Source of the DNA: a virus
Length of the DNA: 45,773 nucleotides
Virus record (IMG/VR): IMGVR_UViG_3300025118_000031
Span: 1 to 45,773 of that record
Direction: 5' to 3' (one strand)
The notes under the pieces are model-generated. The model was not told the DNA's origin, ran no database searches, and saw only the letters and a list, made by a program, of their open reading frames with translations. How positions within the stretch are numbered: position 1 is the stretch's first letter; each line of letters begins with the position of its first letter. The position numbers and the translations under genes were made by a program. This document shows, one piece after another, positions 22,025 to 33,549 of this stretch.

Positions 22025-22608
22025 TGAATAATAAACAAGCAATGAACCCTACTGGGCATCTGACAATCTTCAAAAAATATGAAGATGGGTCAGAAGAATT
22101 ATACTTTGACGAAAATAATGTCGTTACTTCTGGGATGGCAGTAGGATTCTCTCATCTATTTGCTGCCTCTGGTGGAACTAGTATAGTGGATTATCAGATT
22201 GTTAACTTTTTAGTTGGTTCTGGGGTTACTGATCCTACTGATTATGGAACATCAACCTTCCAGCTTAGAGCCCCTATTTTAGGTGAGGCTGATTGGGGAT
22301 CTGACACAGGACTCGTATTAGAAGATTATTATCCTATAGAGGATGGAAGTATCTTAGGATCTACTAGAGCTTTTGCACGAATTCGTTTTAGTAATATACA
22401 TAAAGTAACAAGCACATCTGTAAGGTATACTTTAGTGTTAGATAGGGATACTTTAAATGGGAAGACTTTAAACGAGGTTGGACTATTTATGAGAAATCCT
22501 AGAGGGAGTGTAACCCCTAACCCAATTCTAGCAGCCTATAGACCCTTTACAGAAATAACAAAGACTAGTGATTTTAGTCTCATCTTCCGCTGGACCCTAC
22601 AGTTCTAA
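22024..22608 (+). CDS. Stand-alone fibre anchor / baseplate connector domain
   Basis: A 194-residue protein. It is the minimal, uninterrupted form of the anchor found split in the two upstream proteins: HLTIFKKYEDGSEELYFDEN, VDYQIVNFLVGSG, a strand region, then KTLNEVGLFMRNPRG, PILAAYRPF and FSLIFRWTLQF. The end strongly recalls DUF3751-type tail-collar fibre N-terminal domains. With no receptor-binding extension, it may be a connector onto which other fibres assemble or an anchor that lost its insert. The start codon overlaps the mini-ORF stop, and its stop overlaps the next ATG (TAATG). Confidence 0.7.
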   Translation: MNNKQAMNPTGHLTIFKKYEDGSEELYFDENNVVTSGMAVGFSHLFAASGGTSIVDYQIVNFLVGSGVTDPTDYGTSTFQLRAPILGEADWGSDTGLVLEDYYPIEDGSILGSTRAFARIRFSNIHKVTSTSVRYTLVLDRDTLNGKTLNEVGLFMRNPRGSVTPNPILAAYRPFTEITKTSDFSLIFRWTLQF

Positions 22609-25600
22609 TGGCCTTCAACTCAAACGACTTATATACCGTTTCTGGTGGTATTGATATATTCAACTACTGGAACCCTTTTGTTACCAAGCACGATTCTTCT
22701 TCTTTCTATAATTGGGAACAAGACAATCTCCCTTCTTATGATTTAGAGGAGAGAACTTTTTACTTGTGGGAAAGGTTTGGTTATCATTTATCCGCAGTAC
22801 CTTCTATGGCACTTGTGGTGTCCTCTTCTGTACCTACTCATTTAGCTCTTAGTGCAAATGTGTTTACCTCGGTCTCTGCTGCTGTGGAAGCTCTCCCAGA
22901 GATAATTAGAATGCCTACTCTTATAGAGGTGGCTGTTAGTGGAGATATGGGCGAGCTAAATCTTAATAATATTAAGTGTGAGGAAGATGGGGCTTTAGAG
23001 ATTATTAACAGAGGGTTTGCCCCTATGTTGGAGTGGGTTAACGTACACTCTGATTTCAAAACTAATACTACAGTACGGATGGATAATGATTCAGACAGTA
23101 TTCACGGTATACCCAACCAACTTTCGGGTGCGGGACCAGTAAACTTTTTAACAAATGCTAGTGCATTATCTGTATCCGCAAATACAGCAGATCTATTCCC
23201 CGCTAATGGAACGGCTGGATTCTATAGAAACTTATCCTATGCGGCTACACTAACTTCAGGTAGCTTAGTTCCTGATAAGACTGGATACGGTATTGTTGGG
23301 GGGGCTACGGCAGAAATATTTAGAAGTTCTAACATTGTATATGTTTCTCCAATAGTTCCAGCCTCATATACCCCCAATCATGAATACGATGATGAAACTG
23401 TACTTAAGGATGTTTCAAGCAGCGTTGGTGATAGATCTCTCCCTAGGGGGGTTACGTCAGAACAGGGGCAATTATTTAACGGTATAATAACTGCTAATAA
23501 ATTCTCTAAGATTAAGCTTCAAAATTGTGATGGCCCGATATACATTAGAGGCTTCATAGCTGATGGGTATAATGATACTTCGGACACATTTGATACTGAT
23601 ATAGGAATTGGTGTGTATAACAGTAATGGTGTGGTTATAGAGGATTGTGGTGCTATGAGATGCACCTTGGCAGGATATGAACTAGTTAATTCTAAAGTTG
23701 AGTTAGCCAGAAGAAATCTGTCAATAAGAAATTATGATACTGCTACTAGACTTATTTGGGGTACTGATGGTCCTTCTTTATACGAAACTTATGGAATAAA
23801 AGCTTCTAATAGTGAAATTACCTATAGTCCTAGTAAGGGAGATGCTTCACTGTCTGCCTGTAAGGGTATTTGTGGTGGTCTTGCTTCATATTTTCATACC
23901 TATGGAATACATCTAACAAACTCTACCCTTAAAGGGGGGGATCCTGTTGAGGCGGGTACTGGAGCATTGGGTTTAGGTAAACTTAAATATAAATCTTTTG
24001 TTGAGATAGGTTACAATAACTATGGTTTGTATTCTGTTAACTCCAAATATTCAATGAACGGGTATACTGATGTATACAATAATGAAGTTAATATAAAAGC
24101 TTTTGGTAGTGATATAAGAACCGAATATTTTAATAATGAGAATGGTGCTAAAGAGGGTATAGATTTAACTAGATCTAATTTTATAATTAATAAAAATTAT
24201 AATCAGAATACTTTGTCAACAGGGGCTCCGTTATATTCTACGAATGAAACCGTTAGAAATTCTTACCCTGTTGTCCATAATAAAAATGGAAGACATTTAG
24301 TATTAACAGACGGATCTTATTACGGTCCTGATTATCCAGCAGATTTCTCTGGTATCCAGGGTGGTGGTGGCTCTAACTTTATTTATAGAATATACAGTAA
24401 GCAGGTATTTAATGATTCCTTTGGTACTGATCATATAGGAAATCACTTACCTAGTATACAAATTAATAATTCCCATGCAGAACTCACATGTCCTTCTATA
24501 CTTACTACAGGTATAGGTGTTAATGATGGATCTATTAAAGGTGCCGCAATACAAGTTAACGATGGTGGTGTATGTAAGTTAATAGGAAATGCTCAAGATG
24601 GTATGATGAATGCTATTATTGGACCTACAGATTTTAGTGTACAGCAAAGGTCTGCTGGTATAGCCGCACTAAATGGATCTAAAGTTTATATACATGGTCC
24701 TACTGAAATAATTCAGTATGGGGTGGACTTATTAGCGGAAAATGGGTCTACAATAAAAGCTTGTCCTGTTCTAGATTTTACTAATTCTCATTACGATATT
24801 TCTGGTTGGGGTACTCTAGCGGTTGATACTATATTAGAGCTTCACTCTACTAGAGCATGCGCTGTAGCTAATAATAACTCTAAATTAATATTTGAAGATC
24901 TCGGTAGATTTGAAACTCATTGGCCCCCATCAGAAAGTGATACAGCGGATTACACGGTCCCTACAGGGGTGTCTGCTATATGCGCCAGGGGAGGACTACA
25001 GTTTTTTCCAAATCCTCAATTAAATAGTATGGCCCACAGTAATTTAGTTGATAATGTTAATATTAGAGACTGGAAGTTAAATACCACTTTTGGTAATATG
25101 AAGAGTACTGAAGACCTTAACCTTAGTTGTTACCGTATTTTAATATCTGATGCTGCGAATGAATACGCACCTTCCTCTGGTCAGTATATACGCGATAATC
25201 TTTCTAGGGGTGGGGTGTGTGTTAAGGCTACTGGAAATAGTGAAGTTTTTGTTAAAAATGTTCACTTCCCAACAGCATATGTAAATTCGGATCAATCATA
25301 CTTTGATCCGTCTGCTAGTGTGGCTGGATGTAATGATTTGTTTATATGGAATATACAAGATTCCTCTAAGCTAAATGCTAGTTACTCAACAGTAAGTGGT
25401 GTCTACCCATCGTTGAATGGTTACACAGGTCCTAGATCGTTCTATACTGCTTCAGGAACTGAGTTAGGTTTGGGGGATGATTCTAGTGCTGTGGGCTATA
25501 CTGCATTCTCTGGTACACCTGATACCAGAACTCTTTCTGTTCTTGACCACTTTGGTAGTGGTGTGGATATTGCAAGTACTTTAACTAACTTAATGCCCAA

Positions 25601-26204
25601 TATTCAATTGGCTAGAACAGGTAATGCTAGTACTTACGGGGAGCCTTCATATAAGAATAGAGGACCGTTTAGATTATTCTTTTCAGTCCATCCTGGGGCT
25701 AAAGCATTGTCGTATGCTACCTCTGATAATGGTGCTGTGCCTGAAGATACTAGACCTTATCAACACTTAGCTCAAGGATATGCATTGTCAGGGGCAGTTT
25801 CTGCTGATATGGAAGTAAGTGGCATATACCCAGAGTTACTAACAGTGCTTAATGATACTAGTACTTTTGCTACCAGTGGGTATTACTACCCGACAGATGT
25901 AGTGTTAGATGCTTCTGATCTTCCTGTATTCGGGATGACGGTTTCTGGGAGGGGGTACGCTACTAAAGGATTAATGCAGCCTACCAATGAAGTAAATGTT
26001 TGGTTGGATGAATCGTTTGCCGATACTTTCGACAATGCTAGACATTGTAGTACAGACTATAGTGGTAGAAAGAGATTGGTTAATATATACAAAGCAAAAG
26101 TTACCACGAATGGAGAAGGCTTTATGCCTTCTAGCCCGAGCGTAAGTGGATATGGAATGGGATTCCGTTCTACTAATATATTTGATCTAGATAGAGATTT
26201 ATAA
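22608..26204 (+). CDS. Beta-helix tail adhesin / tailspike-like protein
   Basis: A 1198-residue protein. Residues about 22-57 (NPF...SFYNWEQDNLPSYDLEERTFYLWE) match the N-terminus of the following gene, defining a second attachment family. Most of the rest is short irregular strands with recurring Asn, Gly and Ser turns (GVYNSNGVVIEDCGAMRC, YGIKASNSEITYS, YGIHLTNSTLKGG, YGLYSVNSKYSMNGYTDVYN), the texture of a right-handed parallel beta-helix as in tailspikes and pectate-lyase-like proteins. No catalytic residues can be assigned by eye. It is likely a surface-glycan-binding or degrading protein. It is flanked by TAATG overlaps on both sides. Confidence 0.65.
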   Translation: MAFNSNDLYTVSGGIDIFNYWNPFVTKHDSSSFYNWEQDNLPSYDLEERTFYLWERFGYHLSAVPSMALVVSSSVPTHLALSANVFTSVSAAVEALPEIIRMPTLIEVAVSGDMGELNLNNIKCEEDGALEIINRGFAPMLEWVNVHSDFKTNTTVRMDNDSDSIHGIPNQLSGAGPVNFLTNASALSVSANTADLFPANGTAGFYRNLSYAATLTSGSLVPDKTGYGIVGGATAEIFRSSNIVYVSPIVPASYTPNHEYDDETVLKDVSSSVGDRSLPRGVTSEQGQLFNGIITANKFSKIKLQNCDGPIYIRGFIADGYNDTSDTFDTDIGIGVYNSNGVVIEDCGAMRCTLAGYELVNSKVELARRNLSIRNYDTATRLIWGTDGPSLYETYGIKASNSEITYSPSKGDASLSACKGICGGLASYFHTYGIHLTNSTLKGGDPVEAGTGALGLGKLKYKSFVEIGYNNYGLYSVNSKYSMNGYTDVYNNEVNIKAFGSDIRTEYFNNENGAKEGIDLTRSNFIINKNYNQNTLSTGAPLYSTNETVRNSYPVVHNKNGRHLVLTDGSYYGPDYPADFSGIQGGGGSNFIYRIYSKQVFNDSFGTDHIGNHLPSIQINNSHAELTCPSILTTGIGVNDGSIKGAAIQVNDGGVCKLIGNAQDGMMNAIIGPTDFSVQQRSAGIAALNGSKVYIHGPTEIIQYGVDLLAENGSTIKACPVLDFTNSHYDISGWGTLAVDTILELHSTRACAVANNNSKLIFEDLGRFETHWPPSESDTADYTVPTGVSAICARGGLQFFPNPQLNSMAHSNLVDNVNIRDWKLNTTFGNMKSTEDLNLSCYRILISDAANEYAPSSGQYIRDNLSRGGVCVKATGNSEVFVKNVHFPTAYVNSDQSYFDPSASVAGCNDLFIWNIQDSSKLNASYSTVSGVYPSLNGYTGPRSFYTASGTELGLGDDSSAVGYTAFSGTPDTRTLSVLDHFGSGVDIASTLTNLMPNIQLARTGNASTYGEPSYKNRGPFRLFFSVHPGAKALSYATSDNGAVPEDTRPYQHLAQGYALSGAVSADMEVSGIYPELLTVLNDTSTFATSGYYYPTDVVLDASDLPVFGMTVSGRGYATKGLMQPTNEVNVWLDESFADTFDNARHCSTDYSGRKRLVNIYKAKVTTNGEGFMPSSPSVSGYGMGFRSTNIFDLDRDL

Positions 26205-28627
26205 TGAGTCATGATTTTTTCGCAGATGGACAGGGGCAAGGGCAAAAGAGTTATAAGCCTAGTTCCCACCCTTTTACAGACCCAATTAGATTATTTAAAG
26301 CAAATGATCCTTACTACTGGGAAGTAGATAATATTCCTTTACAGGAATTACAATCTAATATTCTTTGGTTAAAAGATCAAGTTGGGTTGACAGGGGCTCT
26401 TTCTGGTGGTGGGACTTCTAGAGCAGATCTTGATGAGTTAAGACCTGACGCAACTGGAGATACTAGAAATGTTCAGGTTCTTCCAGGTAGATTTATGGGG
26501 AGAGTAAATGATGCTTATAATAAAGGTATAGCTTCAATAGTTAAGAAGGCTGTGGGATCTATTGATTCTAACTTAACGACGGAGATAACTATAACTACCC
26601 CTGAAGATGTTATAAAGAAATTAGCGGGAGTTACTATAACTAGTTACTTGGCTAATAATGGGTTGTATGATGTTCTGCAACATCATGTAACTGCCCCTAA
26701 TCTATTAAATAATATAGATTGGAATTCTGTACATACCCAATTTGCCCAAAATAATAAAGTAGGGGTATTTGATCTCCCCAAAATTAAACTTGCTTTGTGG
26801 AAGCAAGGAACCACGGTAACTAATATAGGTAATGATTATAATTCTCATGTAGATCTACAACAATTAGCGGTTGAGTTTACTAGAGTTTATGGTGCCCCTT
26901 TCCGTACTGCTCTTGTTAATGTTCCTAATACCTTATCCATTGAGGTGCCAAGTTTTGATTCCACAGATTATCAAAATGATTCTATTTATGTACCATCAGT
27001 AAGGGTAGATCTATTATTCCTATATACTAAACCAATTGATGATGCAACTACTGCAATTCTTAAACCTAATGGTAGTGTTTTAACTACTATAACTTCTCCT
27101 CAGTTAGGTATAGTTAAGGGTGCAGGAGTTATTGCTCTTGGTGGAAGGGGAGCGTTTGCTGGTCAAGATATAGATACTTCTTTCTTTGAATCTAGTACAT
27201 GGACTTCTTCTGAGAATGATCCTACTAGTTTCTTCAATGCTTCTGGTGCCTTTGATCTTAATATGAATCCGCAAATCTCCTCCCCAATAGGAGACCAAAA
27301 CCAAACTCAGATGGGATTATCTAATTACTTTTCTAATTTCCCAAGTCCTGATGATCTATTAAACTTAGCTCCTTATATAACGGACGGGATTTCTAAAAGT
27401 AGCTTACAATTAGTTGGACAATCAGTTCTGCCTATAGCGTATATATTTGTTCGTAAAGGGGAGCCTCTTATAACTAGAAATGATATTTTAGATATTAGAC
27501 CCTTCTTCCGTACAGCAGAACTTACCTACAATGAAAGGGCTGGGGTTGCTGGAGCTAGTCCACCCCTATCTTTAGCTAACCCAGCGGTAGGCAAAGAAGA
27601 GTTACGGGACACTGCTACTAAATTAAGAAATCATGTAATAGCTAGTATACCTTCCATACCAAATAACCCGCGCCCTGTTGGGTCTGGGTTTGTGTTTGGG
27701 GGTATTAAGTATGGTCCTGAAGGTGTTATGGCTAGATTAGCCAGTGATAGTAATGATCCTACATCTAAACTAACTGCTTATGATCAAACTTCTATTACAG
27801 ACTATCTTAAAGCTTCAGGTCCTCTTCCCCCAAGTATGTTTGGTAATGTACCTTCCTTTCCTGACTGGGAAATTGCTGATTGGGCTACTAATACCGCAGA
27901 TGGTGGACAACAGCAAAATGATAGATTCTTTTATTTCTATCAAGATGAAAGAAATAATAACTATCCATTAGCTGCCGATGCTTCTTGGGATTCTTTATAT
28001 GGTGGTAGAGTTTCTCAGACTGTGACTTATAATAAAAAAGAGTATAATGACGGTAGGACTGGAACTATGTGTATGCTAGTTAAGAAAAGGATATACCTGG
28101 ACAAAGTTAATGTCCCATGGATGGCAGATTACAATGTGAATGTTTCTTTTGCTAATTGTGCGGTATCTGTGTCTACTGATAAGTATGGTAACTATTCAGA
28201 CACGGACCACCAAATAGATCGGGAGGAGGATGGGGCTTGGTGGACACAGCCTCAGGGGTTATATGTTGATAAATATCCAGACTTTTTTGATATTATTTGT
28301 ATGTGGAGACATACAGAACCTTTTAGAGGTTCACATTGTGATTTAAGTTATGTTGCGGCAGCATCTCCCCCTTCTGCATATAGAACTTCACACATTTTTA
28401 GTAAAGTATTCGTAACTCATGCTACTGGATTTGAACCTCAGAAATATAGTGTTGCTACTAGAGATTTTGTTAGAAAGTTGGGAGGTTATGGAACTGTGCA
28501 TAATATGTTTAAAGGTGCTTGGTGTACCTATCCAACTGTTAAATTTGAAGTTATGGGGTATCCAGAGAACTATACTGGTGACATGTTGACAAATGCTGGG
28601 ATTAATAATACAGTAACCTTATCCTAA
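26204..28627 (+). CDS. Tail protein sharing the beta-helix protein's attachment domain
   Basis: An 807-residue protein. Residues 22-59 (HPFTDPIRLFKANDPYYWEV, DNIPLQELQSNILWLKD) are paralogous to residues 22-57 of the upstream beta-helix protein. Beyond this point the two proteins differ. The middle contains VQVLPGRFMGRVNDAYNKG, a helical VHTQFAQNNKVG region, RVDLLFLYTKPID and YIFVRKGEPLITRNDILDIR, patterns that look like a structured tail component rather than a repetitive fibre. It may be a baseplate arm protein that pairs with the beta-helix protein through the shared domain. The family is not recognised. Confidence 0.6.
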   Translation: MSHDFFADGQGQGQKSYKPSSHPFTDPIRLFKANDPYYWEVDNIPLQELQSNILWLKDQVGLTGALSGGGTSRADLDELRPDATGDTRNVQVLPGRFMGRVNDAYNKGIASIVKKAVGSIDSNLTTEITITTPEDVIKKLAGVTITSYLANNGLYDVLQHHVTAPNLLNNIDWNSVHTQFAQNNKVGVFDLPKIKLALWKQGTTVTNIGNDYNSHVDLQQLAVEFTRVYGAPFRTALVNVPNTLSIEVPSFDSTDYQNDSIYVPSVRVDLLFLYTKPIDDATTAILKPNGSVLTTITSPQLGIVKGAGVIALGGRGAFAGQDIDTSFFESSTWTSSENDPTSFFNASGAFDLNMNPQISSPIGDQNQTQMGLSNYFSNFPSPDDLLNLAPYITDGISKSSLQLVGQSVLPIAYIFVRKGEPLITRNDILDIRPFFRTAELTYNERAGVAGASPPLSLANPAVGKEELRDTATKLRNHVIASIPSIPNNPRPVGSGFVFGGIKYGPEGVMARLASDSNDPTSKLTAYDQTSITDYLKASGPLPPSMFGNVPSFPDWEIADWATNTADGGQQQNDRFFYFYQDERNNNYPLAADASWDSLYGGRVSQTVTYNKKEYNDGRTGTMCMLVKKRIYLDKVNVPWMADYNVNVSFANCAVSVSTDKYGNYSDTDHQIDREEDGAWWTQPQGLYVDKYPDFFDIICMWRHTEPFRGSHCDLSYVAAASPPSAYRTSHIFSKVFVTHATGFEPQKYSVATRDFVRKLGGYGTVHNMFKGAWCTYPTVKFEVMGYPENYTGDMLTNAGINNTVTLS

Positions 28628-28634
28628 AATCGTT

Positions 28635-31600
28635 ATGGCAAATTTTATAACTTGCTGGCTCAAAGACCCTGGTGATTTGCCCCCTGGTGATGGTCCTCCT
28701 GGAGGTAATGGTATAGTTATTCCTCCTGATGACGATGACGATGGAGGATGCCCTGGATTTACTACCTACTGTCAATGCTCTCCTCCAGCAAATTGGCAAG
28801 ATGTAATATTTAACGAAACTAATGGGTGTACAGATTGTACAGTACAGATTCCTAAAATTTGTGATGGTACTGAGAAGGATTGTGTGGTTAATCCAGGTAC
28901 TGGATGTATGGTATGCAAGCCTGGGATGGCTGGTCCTGGAAGTCCGTGTGAGCAGGATAAAGCTTGTTGTGGGCATGATCCTGTTGATTGCAAGGGGTAT
29001 ATGTGCATAGGTGCTGGTACTGCTGATATTCCTTGTACTGATTGTAACCCTTGCGATGCTGGTGGTGGTGGGTTTGGTGGTGATTGTACAGATAGAGAGT
29101 TGTGGATAAATACTGATTGTAAGTCTGATTCTAATTTTGGTTGTTTCCCATGGGAATCTCAAGATATGAATGGTTATGAGATTTGTAATAACTGTTATAA
29201 AAAGAAGTGGGAATGTAAATCTGCCGATTCTGGGCCTTTTGGGAACGGCGACTGTCGTTGGAAACCTGGACCCCCTGGTGGGGAAGATACACCAGTGGTA
29301 CCATTAACCCCGCCAGGGAAATGCTGGAAATGTCCTGATACTATGGGAACGGGCTGTTGTAAACAGGATTGTGATAGAAAGGATGACGGCGAATGTCCAG
29401 ATGATTGCTATGAGAAGAAAAAGGATTGTGATGACCAGTGTAGGTATTTATGTCCTGAATGTAAGATAGAAGATGAGACTTGCTATGATACCTTAGTTAC
29501 TGATTGTACTGAAGAATGTGATCAGACACAAGAAGATTGTGCAGCAGGATGCGTTGATCCCTATGCAGACATGTGTTGGAAGTGTCCAGATAAAGTAGAA
29601 CCTAAGGGGTGTTGTCAAAAGAGCGTAAAGAAAGTAAATGAGAAATGTCCCCCAGGAAGTTTTAAAAGGAAGAAAAAATGTGATCAGGGCTGCCCTAAAA
29701 GATGTTGGAATTGTGCGGAGTATGGTCAACCGTGCAAAAAAGTTACTATTAACTGTAACCAAGACTGTATAGAGGAGGGTTATTACGATTCTCAAACTAA
29801 ATGTGACATCGAATGTAAAGATGATCCTCCCCCTCCCTGTACCGTAGAGTGCTATACTTGTATTGGTTCTGGTGATCCTGGTGGAGTGGATGATGATGGA
29901 GGTGGGGGCTTCTTTGATGGAGGAGCTACGTATATAATAGATGATACTGGAGCAGGAGGTATAGATGGGGGAGGGGGCATCTTTACTGGGGGGGGAAGTA
30001 CAAAATTGACAGACTCTACAGGTGTGGGTGGGACAGATGAATCGAAAGGGGGAGGATCAGAGGGTCAAAAATGTACAGCTATAACAGTTTCTTGTGTTGA
30101 TGTGAATGATAAACCTGATTGTTATAGTTTAGGTTATTATGATGATGATACATGTGATGGAAATTGTGACGCTGAAGAAGGGGCTCAATCTTCCTATGGG
30201 TCTGTGAATGCATTCAATAGGATTTATGGGGCTGGGGGTACGGGTAATCCTATCTATGAGAAATCTTCTAGTAACTTAGTAATTAAAAATAATGCTCAGT
30301 TTGTTGGGGTTCAAAGAGGAGATTTAAGACAGGATTTATTTAAGTCTAGGGTACATGTAGGAATCAGAGCATCATTAGATATAATTAGAGGGAGGATTCA
30401 ATATAGCGATAACCCATTCACTGATCTAAGTGATTCTAATTTAGAGAAGAGTATTAATGATGATATTATTCTAAAGTTAAACCTAGCTAGAGATGCTACA
30501 GGTAAACCCTTAAAGAGGTTCTTTTTAAGTTCTATTAGAAATCTTATAATCTCTAATAGACTAGACTCTTTCAATGTAGTAGAGTTAATTCAGTTGCTAG
30601 ATAGGATTATAAGGAATCAGGATACAGAGGAGTATATAGATACTAGATCTTATGCCCCAATAAGTAGATTAGATACTCTCTATAATGAAGCTTCTGCTAT
30701 ACAACTAGCCACACAGAAAGTTTGGCCTTTGGATCCTGCACAATATGATCAGATTAGAGTAGCAGAGCGTATGAGAACTTGGAAGACCCTAGCTACTGAT
30801 TTAAGTAAGGGATTTCCTGTTACTACATCTACAGGAGCTACTACTATATTCTATTATTCCAATTACGATACCATTGTTTGGGAGGGGAATCTACGCATTA
30901 CCATGAGTAATGGGGACATACAAAGAATAACTCAAAGTGATGGAAGCATAGCAGAGATTCCAGTGCATAGTTCAATAAAAAGGGCAGGTATTCTTAGTAC
31001 AGAAGTGCTTCAGAAACTACTCTATCTTTTAGGAGATAGATATGATATTAATTTAAAAGTTACTACTGATGAAATATTAAGAGTTGATGAGAGGTATGGA
31101 GTAACTAAGGATAGAAAGAATATATATCTTCTAGCTTTACAACCAGGAACAGTTAATGATCTAGAGAGGATTAATCCTTTTGTAGCTAGGAGTACTGCTA
31201 CTTACAAATACCTAGATAGTGCAGCGGATAGAAATTCTCATGTTAGTATTGATGGGTCTGGTGCTGCATTCCCTTCCTTGGAAGTGTATCTAGATATAAA
31301 TGATCCTATCCTTAGTTACATTGAAAATGATGGGACTATAGAGGTTACCTTCAAAGACTTTGTATTAGATCTATTTGATGAGGAAGACCAACAAAATATA
31401 GCTCTTCCTGTGATAGCCAGAAGAGCCCCACAAACTATAGCTATTTACACTACGGATATAACTGCTAATGTTATTACTCATAATATATCTAAATCTACTT
31501 CGTATGGGGTAAGAGAAATAAAATTATTTATGAGCCCAGATACTTTTGGGTCAGATACTTGGCATCCCACTTTTATAAAAGAAACTTTAGCTTATCCTGA

Positions 31601-32063
31601 TAGGGGAATAAACCAATATGTAGCTAATAATCAAGGTGTTCAATACTCTATGGCTACTAAATCATTATCTGAACATAATTTGTACAGGTCTGGCAGCCAG
31701 CCAGTAGAAAGAATAGAGTGGGGGGAGAGGCAAGTATATAAATTAGCTAGAATGCTAAAAGCAGATTACCAATTACCCGCTAATAAGACTGTTTATTGGT
31801 TTGAAATATATGATAGGATGGATACTCCTCAGAAGAAATTTTTACATAGAGAATGTTTGAATTTTGATAAGTTTAAATCTCTTCTGAGTATGGGTAAACC
31901 TGCATTTAGTAGTATAGTAAATGATAAGTACCCTAAAGTTAAAGAGTTTAGATCTGTAAATTGGTTAGGCAATACTGATTTTGTAATTCCATTTGATAAA
32001 GAAGATTATAAATTAAGTGTTAAAGAGGGGCATGTTCCTATCCCTCCAGGAGAGTTACCTTAA
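28635..32063 (+). CDS. Cysteine-rich modular tail protein (about 63 Cys in the first 511 residues)
   Basis: An 1142-residue protein in two contrasting halves. Residues 7-511 hold about 63 cysteines. At least five modules begin with C-x-x-C at residues 230 (CWKC), 273 (CPEC), 314 (CWKC), 357 (CWNC) and 406 (CYTC), and most end in a charged stretch with CDxxC. Earlier cysteines (residues 39-210) look like more divergent modules. The last module is split by about 65 residues of Gly/Asp-rich sequence between CYTC and EGQKCTAITVSC. The first 37 residues are Pro/Gly/Asp-rich. Residues about 530-1142 are a conventional mixed alpha/beta protein with a single cysteine (HRECLNF). No signal peptide is present. 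Its position between fibres and the PAAR gene suggests a virion tail protein. Cys-rich modules could form disulfides outside the cell or bind metal. I know of no matching phage family. Confidence 0.7.
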   Translation: MANFITCWLKDPGDLPPGDGPPGGNGIVIPPDDDDDGGCPGFTTYCQCSPPANWQDVIFNETNGCTDCTVQIPKICDGTEKDCVVNPGTGCMVCKPGMAGPGSPCEQDKACCGHDPVDCKGYMCIGAGTADIPCTDCNPCDAGGGGFGGDCTDRELWINTDCKSDSNFGCFPWESQDMNGYEICNNCYKKKWECKSADSGPFGNGDCRWKPGPPGGEDTPVVPLTPPGKCWKCPDTMGTGCCKQDCDRKDDGECPDDCYEKKKDCDDQCRYLCPECKIEDETCYDTLVTDCTEECDQTQEDCAAGCVDPYADMCWKCPDKVEPKGCCQKSVKKVNEKCPPGSFKRKKKCDQGCPKRCWNCAEYGQPCKKVTINCNQDCIEEGYYDSQTKCDIECKDDPPPPCTVECYTCIGSGDPGGVDDDGGGGFFDGGATYIIDDTGAGGIDGGGGIFTGGGSTKLTDSTGVGGTDESKGGGSEGQKCTAITVSCVDVNDKPDCYSLGYYDDDTCDGNCDAEEGAQSSYGSVNAFNRIYGAGGTGNPIYEKSSSNLVIKNNAQFVGVQRGDLRQDLFKSRVHVGIRASLDIIRGRIQYSDNPFTDLSDSNLEKSINDDIILKLNLARDATGKPLKRFFLSSIRNLIISNRLDSFNVVELIQLLDRIIRNQDTEEYIDTRSYAPISRLDTLYNEASAIQLATQKVWPLDPAQYDQIRVAERMRTWKTLATDLSKGFPVTTSTGATTIFYYSNYDTIVWEGNLRITMSNGDIQRITQSDGSIAEIPVHSSIKRAGILSTEVLQKLLYLLGDRYDINLKVTTDEILRVDERYGVTKDRKNIYLLALQPGTVNDLERINPFVARSTATYKYLDSAADRNSHVSIDGSGAAFPSLEVYLDINDPILSYIENDGTIEVTFKDFVLDLFDEEDQQNIALPVIARRAPQTIAIYTTDITANVITHNISKSTSYGVREIKLFMSPDTFGSDTWHPTFIKETLAYPDRGINQYVANNQGVQYSMATKSLSEHNLYRSGSQPVERIEWGERQVYKLARMLKADYQLPANKTVYWFEIYDRMDTPQKKFLHRECLNFDKFKSLLSMGKPAFSSIVNDKYPKVKEFRSVNWLGNTDFVIPFDKEDYKLSVKEGHVPIPPGELP

Positions 32064-32064
32064 A

Positions 32065-33060
32065 ATGCCACAAGTAGCAAGAATGGATGACACATGTGAT
32101 CACGATTTCGCTCCTATTGGACGAGACGGCAAGGGAATTGAAAGCACTGTACTTGTCAACAGTAGACCTATAGCCGTAACGGACGGCACTGGAGACGGTG
32201 CTACGGGTCCGTGTGGGTTATGGCGAGACAACCTTACCCCAGCGGGGGATGGATTCGATACGCACCCTTTGGGGAGGTCCCCTTTATACCCTCCTGGGTC
32301 GAACCCACCTGGGGTACCTGGACCTACAACTGGATCAAATACAGTTTTCGCTGGTGGACTTCCTGTGCATAGATTTAATGATGGTAGGGGATGTGGAGCG
32401 GAAACCAATACAGCATCACCAGATGTTTGGGCTGATTTCGTAGAGAAGATTAGAATAGAGGGAGCTACGGTGAATGAGCCTAAAGCATCTCCAGCAGCAC
32501 CAACATTATGGGCATATCCTCCTGGTGAGTTCTATATGTTTTCTGATTTATTACCTGGACTATTTTTTGTTAGAAGTCCATACTCTGATAGTAAACTTTT
32601 CCAATTTTTAGATCAGAACGATTTTGTTCAATGGGGAACTGAGATACGACCTACCTTAGAGTTTGAGGATATTACTGATGAAGATAAGTTCAAGGTTCCC
32701 GATCTAGATTTAGCGGTTAGAAAGTCTTCTATACCATTAGGATTAGATTTGGGTATTGATGACCCTACTATATCAGTTTCTTTTGCTGGGGGATTACAAG
32801 CCAAAGGATTCCCTTCTTATGGAGAAGTTAGAGATTTAGATGATTTAGGTACTATATCTGGTAAAGGCACTGTGGATACATGGCAGGACTTTTATAGACC
32901 AGGATACGATGTGTCTGGGTTTTTAATTTCTATAACCCCTACGTCATATACAGGATATCCAACTTACATAGCTAATGAGTCAGGAAATGGTTTAAGCTAC
33001 ACTAAACTTTTAATAATGCCTACTTTCCCAAAGCAGTTCTTAACCTTTGGAGCCCCTTAG
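32065..33060 (+). CDS. PAAR-like spike tip protein with C-terminal extension
   Basis: The preferred start is the ATG at 32065, two bases after the upstream stop and preceded by AGGAGAG; a start at 32017 would lie inside the previous gene. The resulting 331-residue protein begins MPQVARMDDTCDHDFAPIG, followed by GIESTVLVNSRPIAVTDGTG, and later SNTVFAGGLPVHRFNDGRGC. These are the two paired 'G..TV.VNG.P..R..D' hairpins and Cys/His residues of PAAR tips, which sharpen the central spike with a metal-bound point (compare T4 gp5.4). About 200 further residues form an unassigned extension. The tip gene lies some 25 kb from the spike gene. The PAAR part is encoded by DNA richer in GC than its surroundings. 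Confidence 0.75.
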   Translation: MPQVARMDDTCDHDFAPIGRDGKGIESTVLVNSRPIAVTDGTGDGATGPCGLWRDNLTPAGDGFDTHPLGRSPLYPPGSNPPGVPGPTTGSNTVFAGGLPVHRFNDGRGCGAETNTASPDVWADFVEKIRIEGATVNEPKASPAAPTLWAYPPGEFYMFSDLLPGLFFVRSPYSDSKLFQFLDQNDFVQWGTEIRPTLEFEDITDEDKFKVPDLDLAVRKSSIPLGLDLGIDDPTISVSFAGGLQAKGFPSYGEVRDLDDLGTISGKGTVDTWQDFYRPGYDVSGFLISITPTSYTGYPTYIANESGNGLSYTKLLIMPTFPKQFLTFGAP

Positions 33061-33159: not shown

Positions 33160-33549
33160 ATGGATTTTCGTACTAAAGTAAGTGATGATTTTGTAGGCCA
33201 GCTACTTGAGTCCCGTGGTTGGGACATGGTTGGTGTTCGTGTTGAGGAAAAAGTAAAGAGTGGCGAGGTTGAAGCTAAGGAAGAGGTTCAAGATTCTGAA
33301 GAGGTTATTGCTGAGAACAGTTGTTGCCCCCTTTGTGAGTCTGATCTTGGTGAGTATGAGCTTACTGATGAAGCCCTTCAAGAGCATGCTGCCTCTATGA
33401 TGGAAGTTTTCTCGGAAGCTGGTCTCATTTCTGAGCAAGTTGAAGAGTCTTTCATTATTGAGAACGCAGAAGAAATTCTTGGTGTTCTTTCTGAAGCTGG
33501 TCTTATTGTTGAAGCTACCAACGAAGAAGCTGACGAAGACGACGAGTAA
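33160..33549 (+). CDS. Acidic, probably abundant head-module protein (prohead core candidate)
   Basis: A 129-residue, very acidic protein ending in EEADEDDE. Residues 83-92 (VFSEAGLISE) and 109-118 (VLSEAGLIVE) are an internal duplication. A Cys cluster CCPLC (55-59) with His76 may bind metal but is incomplete as a classical finger. Several (L/I)xE tripeptides (LLE 15-17, ISE, IVE) resemble T4 gp21 cleavage sites. All three Arg codons are CGT, as favoured in the capsid gene and unlike the tail genes, suggesting high expression. Position two genes before the protease parallels T4 gp67/gp68, small core proteins degraded during maturation. Function is inferred from context and composition. Confidence 0.6.
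   Translation: MDFRTKVSDDFVGQLLESRGWDMVGVRVEEKVKSGEVEAKEEVQDSEEVIAENSCCPLCESDLGEYELTDEALQEHAASMMEVFSEAGLISEQVEESFIIENAEEILGVLSEAGLIVEATNEEADEDDE

Follow-up and report, generated by a model that had tools for sequence, protein, structure and literature searches.

The cysteine-rich gene and its genomic context

The window examined here, a 45,773-nucleotide stretch comprising positions 1 to 45,773 of IMG/VR record IMGVR_UViG_3300025118_000031, contains a 1142-aa ORF that we confirmed as real and whose features are listed in Table 1. The gene sits between a conserved upstream neighbor and a PAAR gene. Since the surrounding genes encode gp25- and gp6-type baseplate wedge proteins, PAAR, a head protease, the major head protein, sheath and tube, we identify the window as the structural-gene cluster of a myovirus resembling T4. 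An earlier sequence-only reading had placed the protein on the tail, and the gene context supports that placement. We read the window as probably marine, going by metagenome contig names and by a link to Prochlorococcus described below.

Table 1. Features of the cysteine-rich gene and its immediate neighbors (positions in the window; residues numbered in the 1142-aa protein).
Feature	Position	Strand	Basis
Upstream neighbor, motif ANDPYYWEVDNIPL, syntenic marker for the family	26204..28627	+	Gave the related contigs
Cysteine-rich tail-cluster protein, 1142 aa, whole ORF	28635..32063	+	Family by synteny and profile search
Conserved N-terminal tag MANFITCWLKDPGDLPPGDGPPGG, residues 1-24, solitary Cys7	28635..28706	+	Near-identical in L002 and L004
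Pro/Asp/Gly-rich spacer, residues 25-38	28707..28748	+	Sequence
Irregular cysteine-rich stretch, residues 39-207	28749..29255	+	Cysteine positions; aligns in part with L002 and L004
CWKC-type module, copy 1, residues 230-269	29322..29441	+	Module comparison
Cysteine module starting CPEC, residues 273-306	29451..29552	+	Cysteine positions
CWKC-type module, copy 2, residues 314-353	29574..29693	+	Module comparison
CWNC module, residues 357-394, ending in GYYDSQTKCDIEC	29703..29816	+	Cysteine positions, motif counts
Last cysteine clusters (402-409 and 480-511) with Gly-rich linker 412-478 between them	29838..30167	+	Cysteine positions
Conserved C-terminal domain core, residues 566-1091	30330..31907	+	Family profile; AF2 model of residues 541-1142
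Downstream PAAR-type gene, probable start ATG 32065	32065..33060	+	phrog_281, E 9.5e-9

The first 511 residues were said to carry about 63 cysteines; the count is exactly 63 (12.3%), against a single cysteine, at 1074, in the remaining 631 residues (512-1142). Elsewhere in the window, the 28 other genes have a mean cysteine content of 0.59% and a maximum of 2.3%, the latter in a protein of 129 aa. One relative, 60% identical in its C-terminal part, has 65 cysteines in the same half, and this retention, together with a family-wide contrast between N- and C-terminal regions, argues that the enrichment is not due to chance. Histidine occurs once in the 565-residue N-terminal part.

All five module starts of the form CxxC that had been proposed are present (residues 230, 273, 314, 357 and 406), three of them CWKC (230 and 314) or CWNC (357). 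The accompanying statement that modules usually end near CDxxC holds for four closures (265-269, 349-353, 390-394 and 507-511), whereas the module from 273 closes with CAAGC. The two CWKC modules are the only clear mutual copies, and the stretch at 39-207 is less regular in its cysteines than the modules. Four relatives (L020, L021, L027 and L050) have one copy each of the CWKC module. No tandem array of modules is visible at the DNA level in the window, so its modules are old.

Several features of the neighboring genes were recorded alongside. The mechanically called PAAR start, GTG at 32017 (ORF 32017-33060), overlaps the cysteine-rich gene; the start given in Table 1 is likelier, lying just past the stop at 32063, and the same holds in L002 (11674). 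A PAAR-like gene is present at 9 of 46 related loci. A small protein adjoining the head genes (33160-33549) has a CCPLC zinc-ribbon-like motif that is kept in L002 (12761-13180). The long neighboring protein at 22608-26204 contains 15 cysteines, a share of 1.25% that is roughly double the window average, and its motif YNWEQDNLP resembles YYWEVDNIP of the following gene.

Family recovery and architecture

A direct search with the window protein recovered just four loci in IMG/VR. The upstream neighbor is better conserved and led to 46 contigs, at which the next gene was searched by iterated profile; this yielded 35 proteins with a common C-terminal domain of about 520 residues. Added scans with sub-family alignments brought the set to about 44 distinct complete members, on contigs that are mostly fragments and nearly all uncultivated.

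Across the family, N-terminal parts range from 73 to 1270 residues and from 0 to 101 cysteines, and the pooled cysteine share is 6.2% in N-terminal regions versus 0.18% in the C-terminal domain. A cysteine lies within the first 17 residues in 41/44 members, in most cases with a Pro/Gly-rich stretch after it, and this holds even for members in which cysteine is otherwise rare (L034 has a single cysteine, at position 9, in an N-terminal part of 178 residues). The C-terminal domain was modeled with confidence by AF2 (residues 541-1142 of the window protein; pLDDT 82.4, pTM 0.84). The key feature of the family is its architecture of a conserved tag, a variable cysteine array and a conserved C-terminal domain, which lay beyond the reach of the sequence-only reading. 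Given that L034, L040/L057 and L082/L083 have no array, the array is not needed for the core function.

L082 and L083 have neither the N-terminal cysteine nor the array (one cysteine in about 360 N-terminal residues) and offer a natural comparison for the array's contribution. In L021 (9945-10200), an additional cysteine module opens the ORF, ahead of the usual tag motif LWLNCTLKFPG, and the match to the upstream neighbor is only partial; here the beginning of the gene may have been duplicated or recombined, or the start codon may be wrongly assigned.

A single host link emerged, to the Prochlorococcus single-cell assembly AG-409-P03, which has a cysteine-free member: its 130-kb viral contig L060/L057 (QCKN01000003.1) encodes the C-terminal domain without the cysteine-rich array. 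We found no other convincing match in 400 genomes of Prochlorococcus' family.

Repeated modules in relatives

Some relatives have long runs of tandem modules of 47-62 residues each, with 11 copies in L018 and 13 in L019, following the pattern C-x4-C-x(4-7)-C-...-C-...-YY-x5-C-x3-C. Among 26 copies (24 from L018 and L019, two from L024), the six cysteines are the only invariant positions, and mean column identity is 29%. L028 has about four tandem units of 276 nt with about eight cysteines each by our count; the cysteine total of the related L030 is lower by 24. AF2 modeled one L018-type module at pLDDT 91.9, as two beta strands, a hairpin and a C-terminal helix. This confident model is of a relative's six-cysteine module, other than the window's own modules; hhalign gives a probability of 0.8% for the window CWKC module against the L018 module, and homology between the two was not established.

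The six-cysteine module has the aromatic-x5-C-x3-C ending typical of Kunitz/BPTI domains, placed on the C-terminal helix. Its sole VIA-align 2 match at Z of at least 2 is the HAI-1 chain of 4isn, a weak match (Z 3.3, rmsd 2.1 A, 38/55 residues). Both observations would suit an array with a protective or inhibitory role, for example Kunitz-like protease inhibitor modules shielding the tail from proteases rather than binding a receptor. We consider such a role quite improbable: beyond the weakness of that Z score, Foldseek returned nothing at E < 1 for the module, the other cysteine spacings differ from those of Kunitz domains, the Pfam Kunitz_BPTI profile (PF00014) had no match even at E 10 in 14 records, and Pfam scans, covering both the whole proteins and the modules, gave no Kunitz_BPTI hit. 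Because the profile found no match, we record a resemblance to Kunitz domains, short of membership. A CPPGSFxxxxxCD motif had also brought up the CBM_14/peritrophin-A chitin-binding domain (PF01607), which had no match at E 10.

Evolution of the array

Cysteines outlast the sequence around them. L018 and L019 conserve 89/89 aligned cysteines at 69% identity, and their 12-cysteine difference lies wholly in gaps, which fits two six-cysteine modules. All 31 cysteines are kept between L027 and L050 (31/31, 73% identity). More distant pairs behave similarly, with 33 cysteines shared versus 3 substituted in L023/L026 (31% identity) and 19 versus 2 in L032/L044 (38% identity). Against L016, L079 and L081, many cysteines of the window protein are unaligned, as they are against its nearest relatives, so its array has undergone extensive rebuilding.

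The N-terminal region evolves faster than the C-terminal domain. dN was higher in the N-terminal part in all pairs compared, with dS saturated in many of them; in closer pairs the N- versus C-terminal values were 0.24 vs 0.09, 0.34 vs 0.13 and 0.21 vs 0.03. The overall pattern is one of a fixed cysteine frame with a fast-changing surface and gain and loss of modules. With regard to a diversity-generating retroelement, no reverse transcriptase (RVT_1) was found in 21 records, all of them fragments.

Disulfides or metal

The cysteines had been proposed to form disulfides or to bind metal, and the family comparison favors disulfides: cysteines outlast the surrounding sequence and change in number by whole modules, CxxC is not enriched (56 observed in the family versus 60 in shuffles), and histidine is nearly absent. 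The enriched motif is instead aromatic-x5-CxxxC (32 observed versus 3.2 expected, tenfold). The metal half of the proposal, in which the modules use Cys4 sites to bind zinc or iron, reach their fold within the reducing cytoplasm and stabilize the tail without disulfides, has its attractions, since the window protein has several CxxC pairs, folding in the cytoplasm would be simple and metal ions are frequent on phage tail tips. It nevertheless looks unlikely to us: besides the lack of family-wide CxxC enrichment and the scarcity of histidine, the cysteines beyond the first leave a mix of 0 and 2 modulo 4 in family N-terminal regions, and six invariant cysteines with variable spacing are unfit for Cys4 sites.

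We also asked whether cysteine counts suggest pairing. In the discovery set, 26/29 members had an odd N-terminal count, that is, a solitary cysteine plus an even remainder (P 7.6e-6 with members treated as independent). A hold-out set of later-found members agreed in 7/12. Pooled, the count beyond the N-terminal cysteine is even in 33/41 (P 5.6e-5, uncorrected and over related sequences), and lysine reaches P 0.006 in the same table. Strong in the discovery set and unreproduced in the hold-out, parity fails as proof of pairing, and we treat it as weakly supportive only. A search for Erv/Alr oxidases and thioredoxin found none in 21 contigs, which are fragments and in which the Erv control likewise matched nowhere.

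Precedents and novelty

Disulfides in phage virions are established. Phage Milano has an extensive disulfide network in tail and baseplate, including a bond between fiber Cys38 and the baseplate (PMC10811340). The capsid of phage 7-7-1 contains numerous disulfides (PMC12796354), and in the myophage Pam3 the tail fibers are reported to be joined to the baseplate wedge by disulfides (cited in PMC11821841). Cysteines in virions are accordingly less paradoxical than the sequence-only reading had held. What would be new is the likely concentration of disulfides in one modular, variable protein. Among the nearest parallels are Milano and 7-7-1, Agrobacterium phages whose myovirus virion proteins contain many disulfides (PMC10811340, PMC12796354), as proposed here. 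Their cysteines, at 1.4-2.6%, are distributed among many structural proteins and mostly bond between chains; in our case the cysteine-rich half of one protein reaches 11-12%, and relatives have tandem self-contained modules. The fiber-wedge disulfide of Pam3 is a possible parallel for the solitary N-terminal cysteine of the family, and the passage on the Pam3 fibers describes no cysteine-rich module array (PMC11821841).

These precedents raise the alternative that interchain crosslinks between the cysteines keep the baseplate locked until the cell surface supplies a reducing trigger. Such a lock has been proposed for Milano, whose baseplate and sheath disulfides must be reduced for contraction (PMC10811340). 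The solitary N-terminal cysteine kept in 41/44 members would suit such a lock. We nonetheless regard it as rather improbable, as the cysteines are gathered in one protein as self-contained modules, the neighboring structural proteins are cysteine-poor and the array ranges from no cysteines to 101.

Phage Ig-like domains are optional small domains added in variable number to virion proteins. The cysteine array may work like this form of display, differing in that its modules are built on cysteines; no Ig profile matched in Pfam scans of the family proteins.

The sequence-only reading had called the protein undescribed, and this stands within the databases searched (Pfam, PHROGs, GenBank phages and PDB). 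Neither the C-terminal domain nor the array matched PHROGs v4 profiles, and sequence searches of the family protein against Pfam, PHROGs and PDB gave nothing credible. Five family queries, namely the window protein plus four relatives or fragments, gave no tblastn match in 50,697 GenBank phage records. We found no description of the cysteine-rich family in the literature. In fold searches, the C-terminal domain had no PDB match at E < 0.4 or VIA Z of at least 2 and no BFVD match at E < 0.2; such an absence does not prove a new fold.

Proposed function and significance

On balance, we favor the interpretation that the gene product is a structural protein from a tail/baseplate cluster of the T4 type, tethered at its ends and carrying a variable array of modules braced by disulfides, most likely for contact with host surfaces. 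The data show the architecture, the enrichment and conservation of cysteines, module turnover in relatives, the more rapid evolution of the N-terminal part and the setting among tail genes. The mechanism we infer, covering disulfide state and timing, location in the virion, tethering and receptor contact, would run as follows. The conserved N-terminal tag, with its one unpaired cysteine, and the large C-terminal domain probably hold the protein to the baseplate. Between these ends, small cysteine-rich modules would form intramolecular disulfides, giving a rigid scaffold that resists proteases and supports surface residues that change quickly. The array would loop outward, most likely touching host-cell surfaces, and would evolve through gain and loss of whole modules, with its disulfides forming late, on or after lysis. 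As a guess by analogy with the fiber cysteines of Milano and Pam3, the solitary N-terminal cysteine may bond interchain to the baseplate as a tether.

More tentatively, the protein could be a tail adhesin of tandem disulfide mini-domains with a fold new to viruses, unfolded in the cytoplasm, oxidized after release and diversified by module gain and loss with fixed cysteines, in mostly uncultivated T4-like phages; we see this as possible rather than probable.

The absence of the family from the GenBank phages, Pfam and PHROGs that we searched marks a gap in the annotation of marine phages. The family also raises, as a testable question, the manner and timing of disulfide formation in virions that assemble in a reducing cytoplasm. 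Repeats rich in disulfides are characteristic of proteins secreted by eukaryotes. If our interpretation is true, a whole phage family places such repeats on a tail-cluster protein, each chain with up to about 100 cysteines. Phages would then have evolved a variable surface scaffolded by cystines, and with it a new type of rugged surface for contact with host cells.
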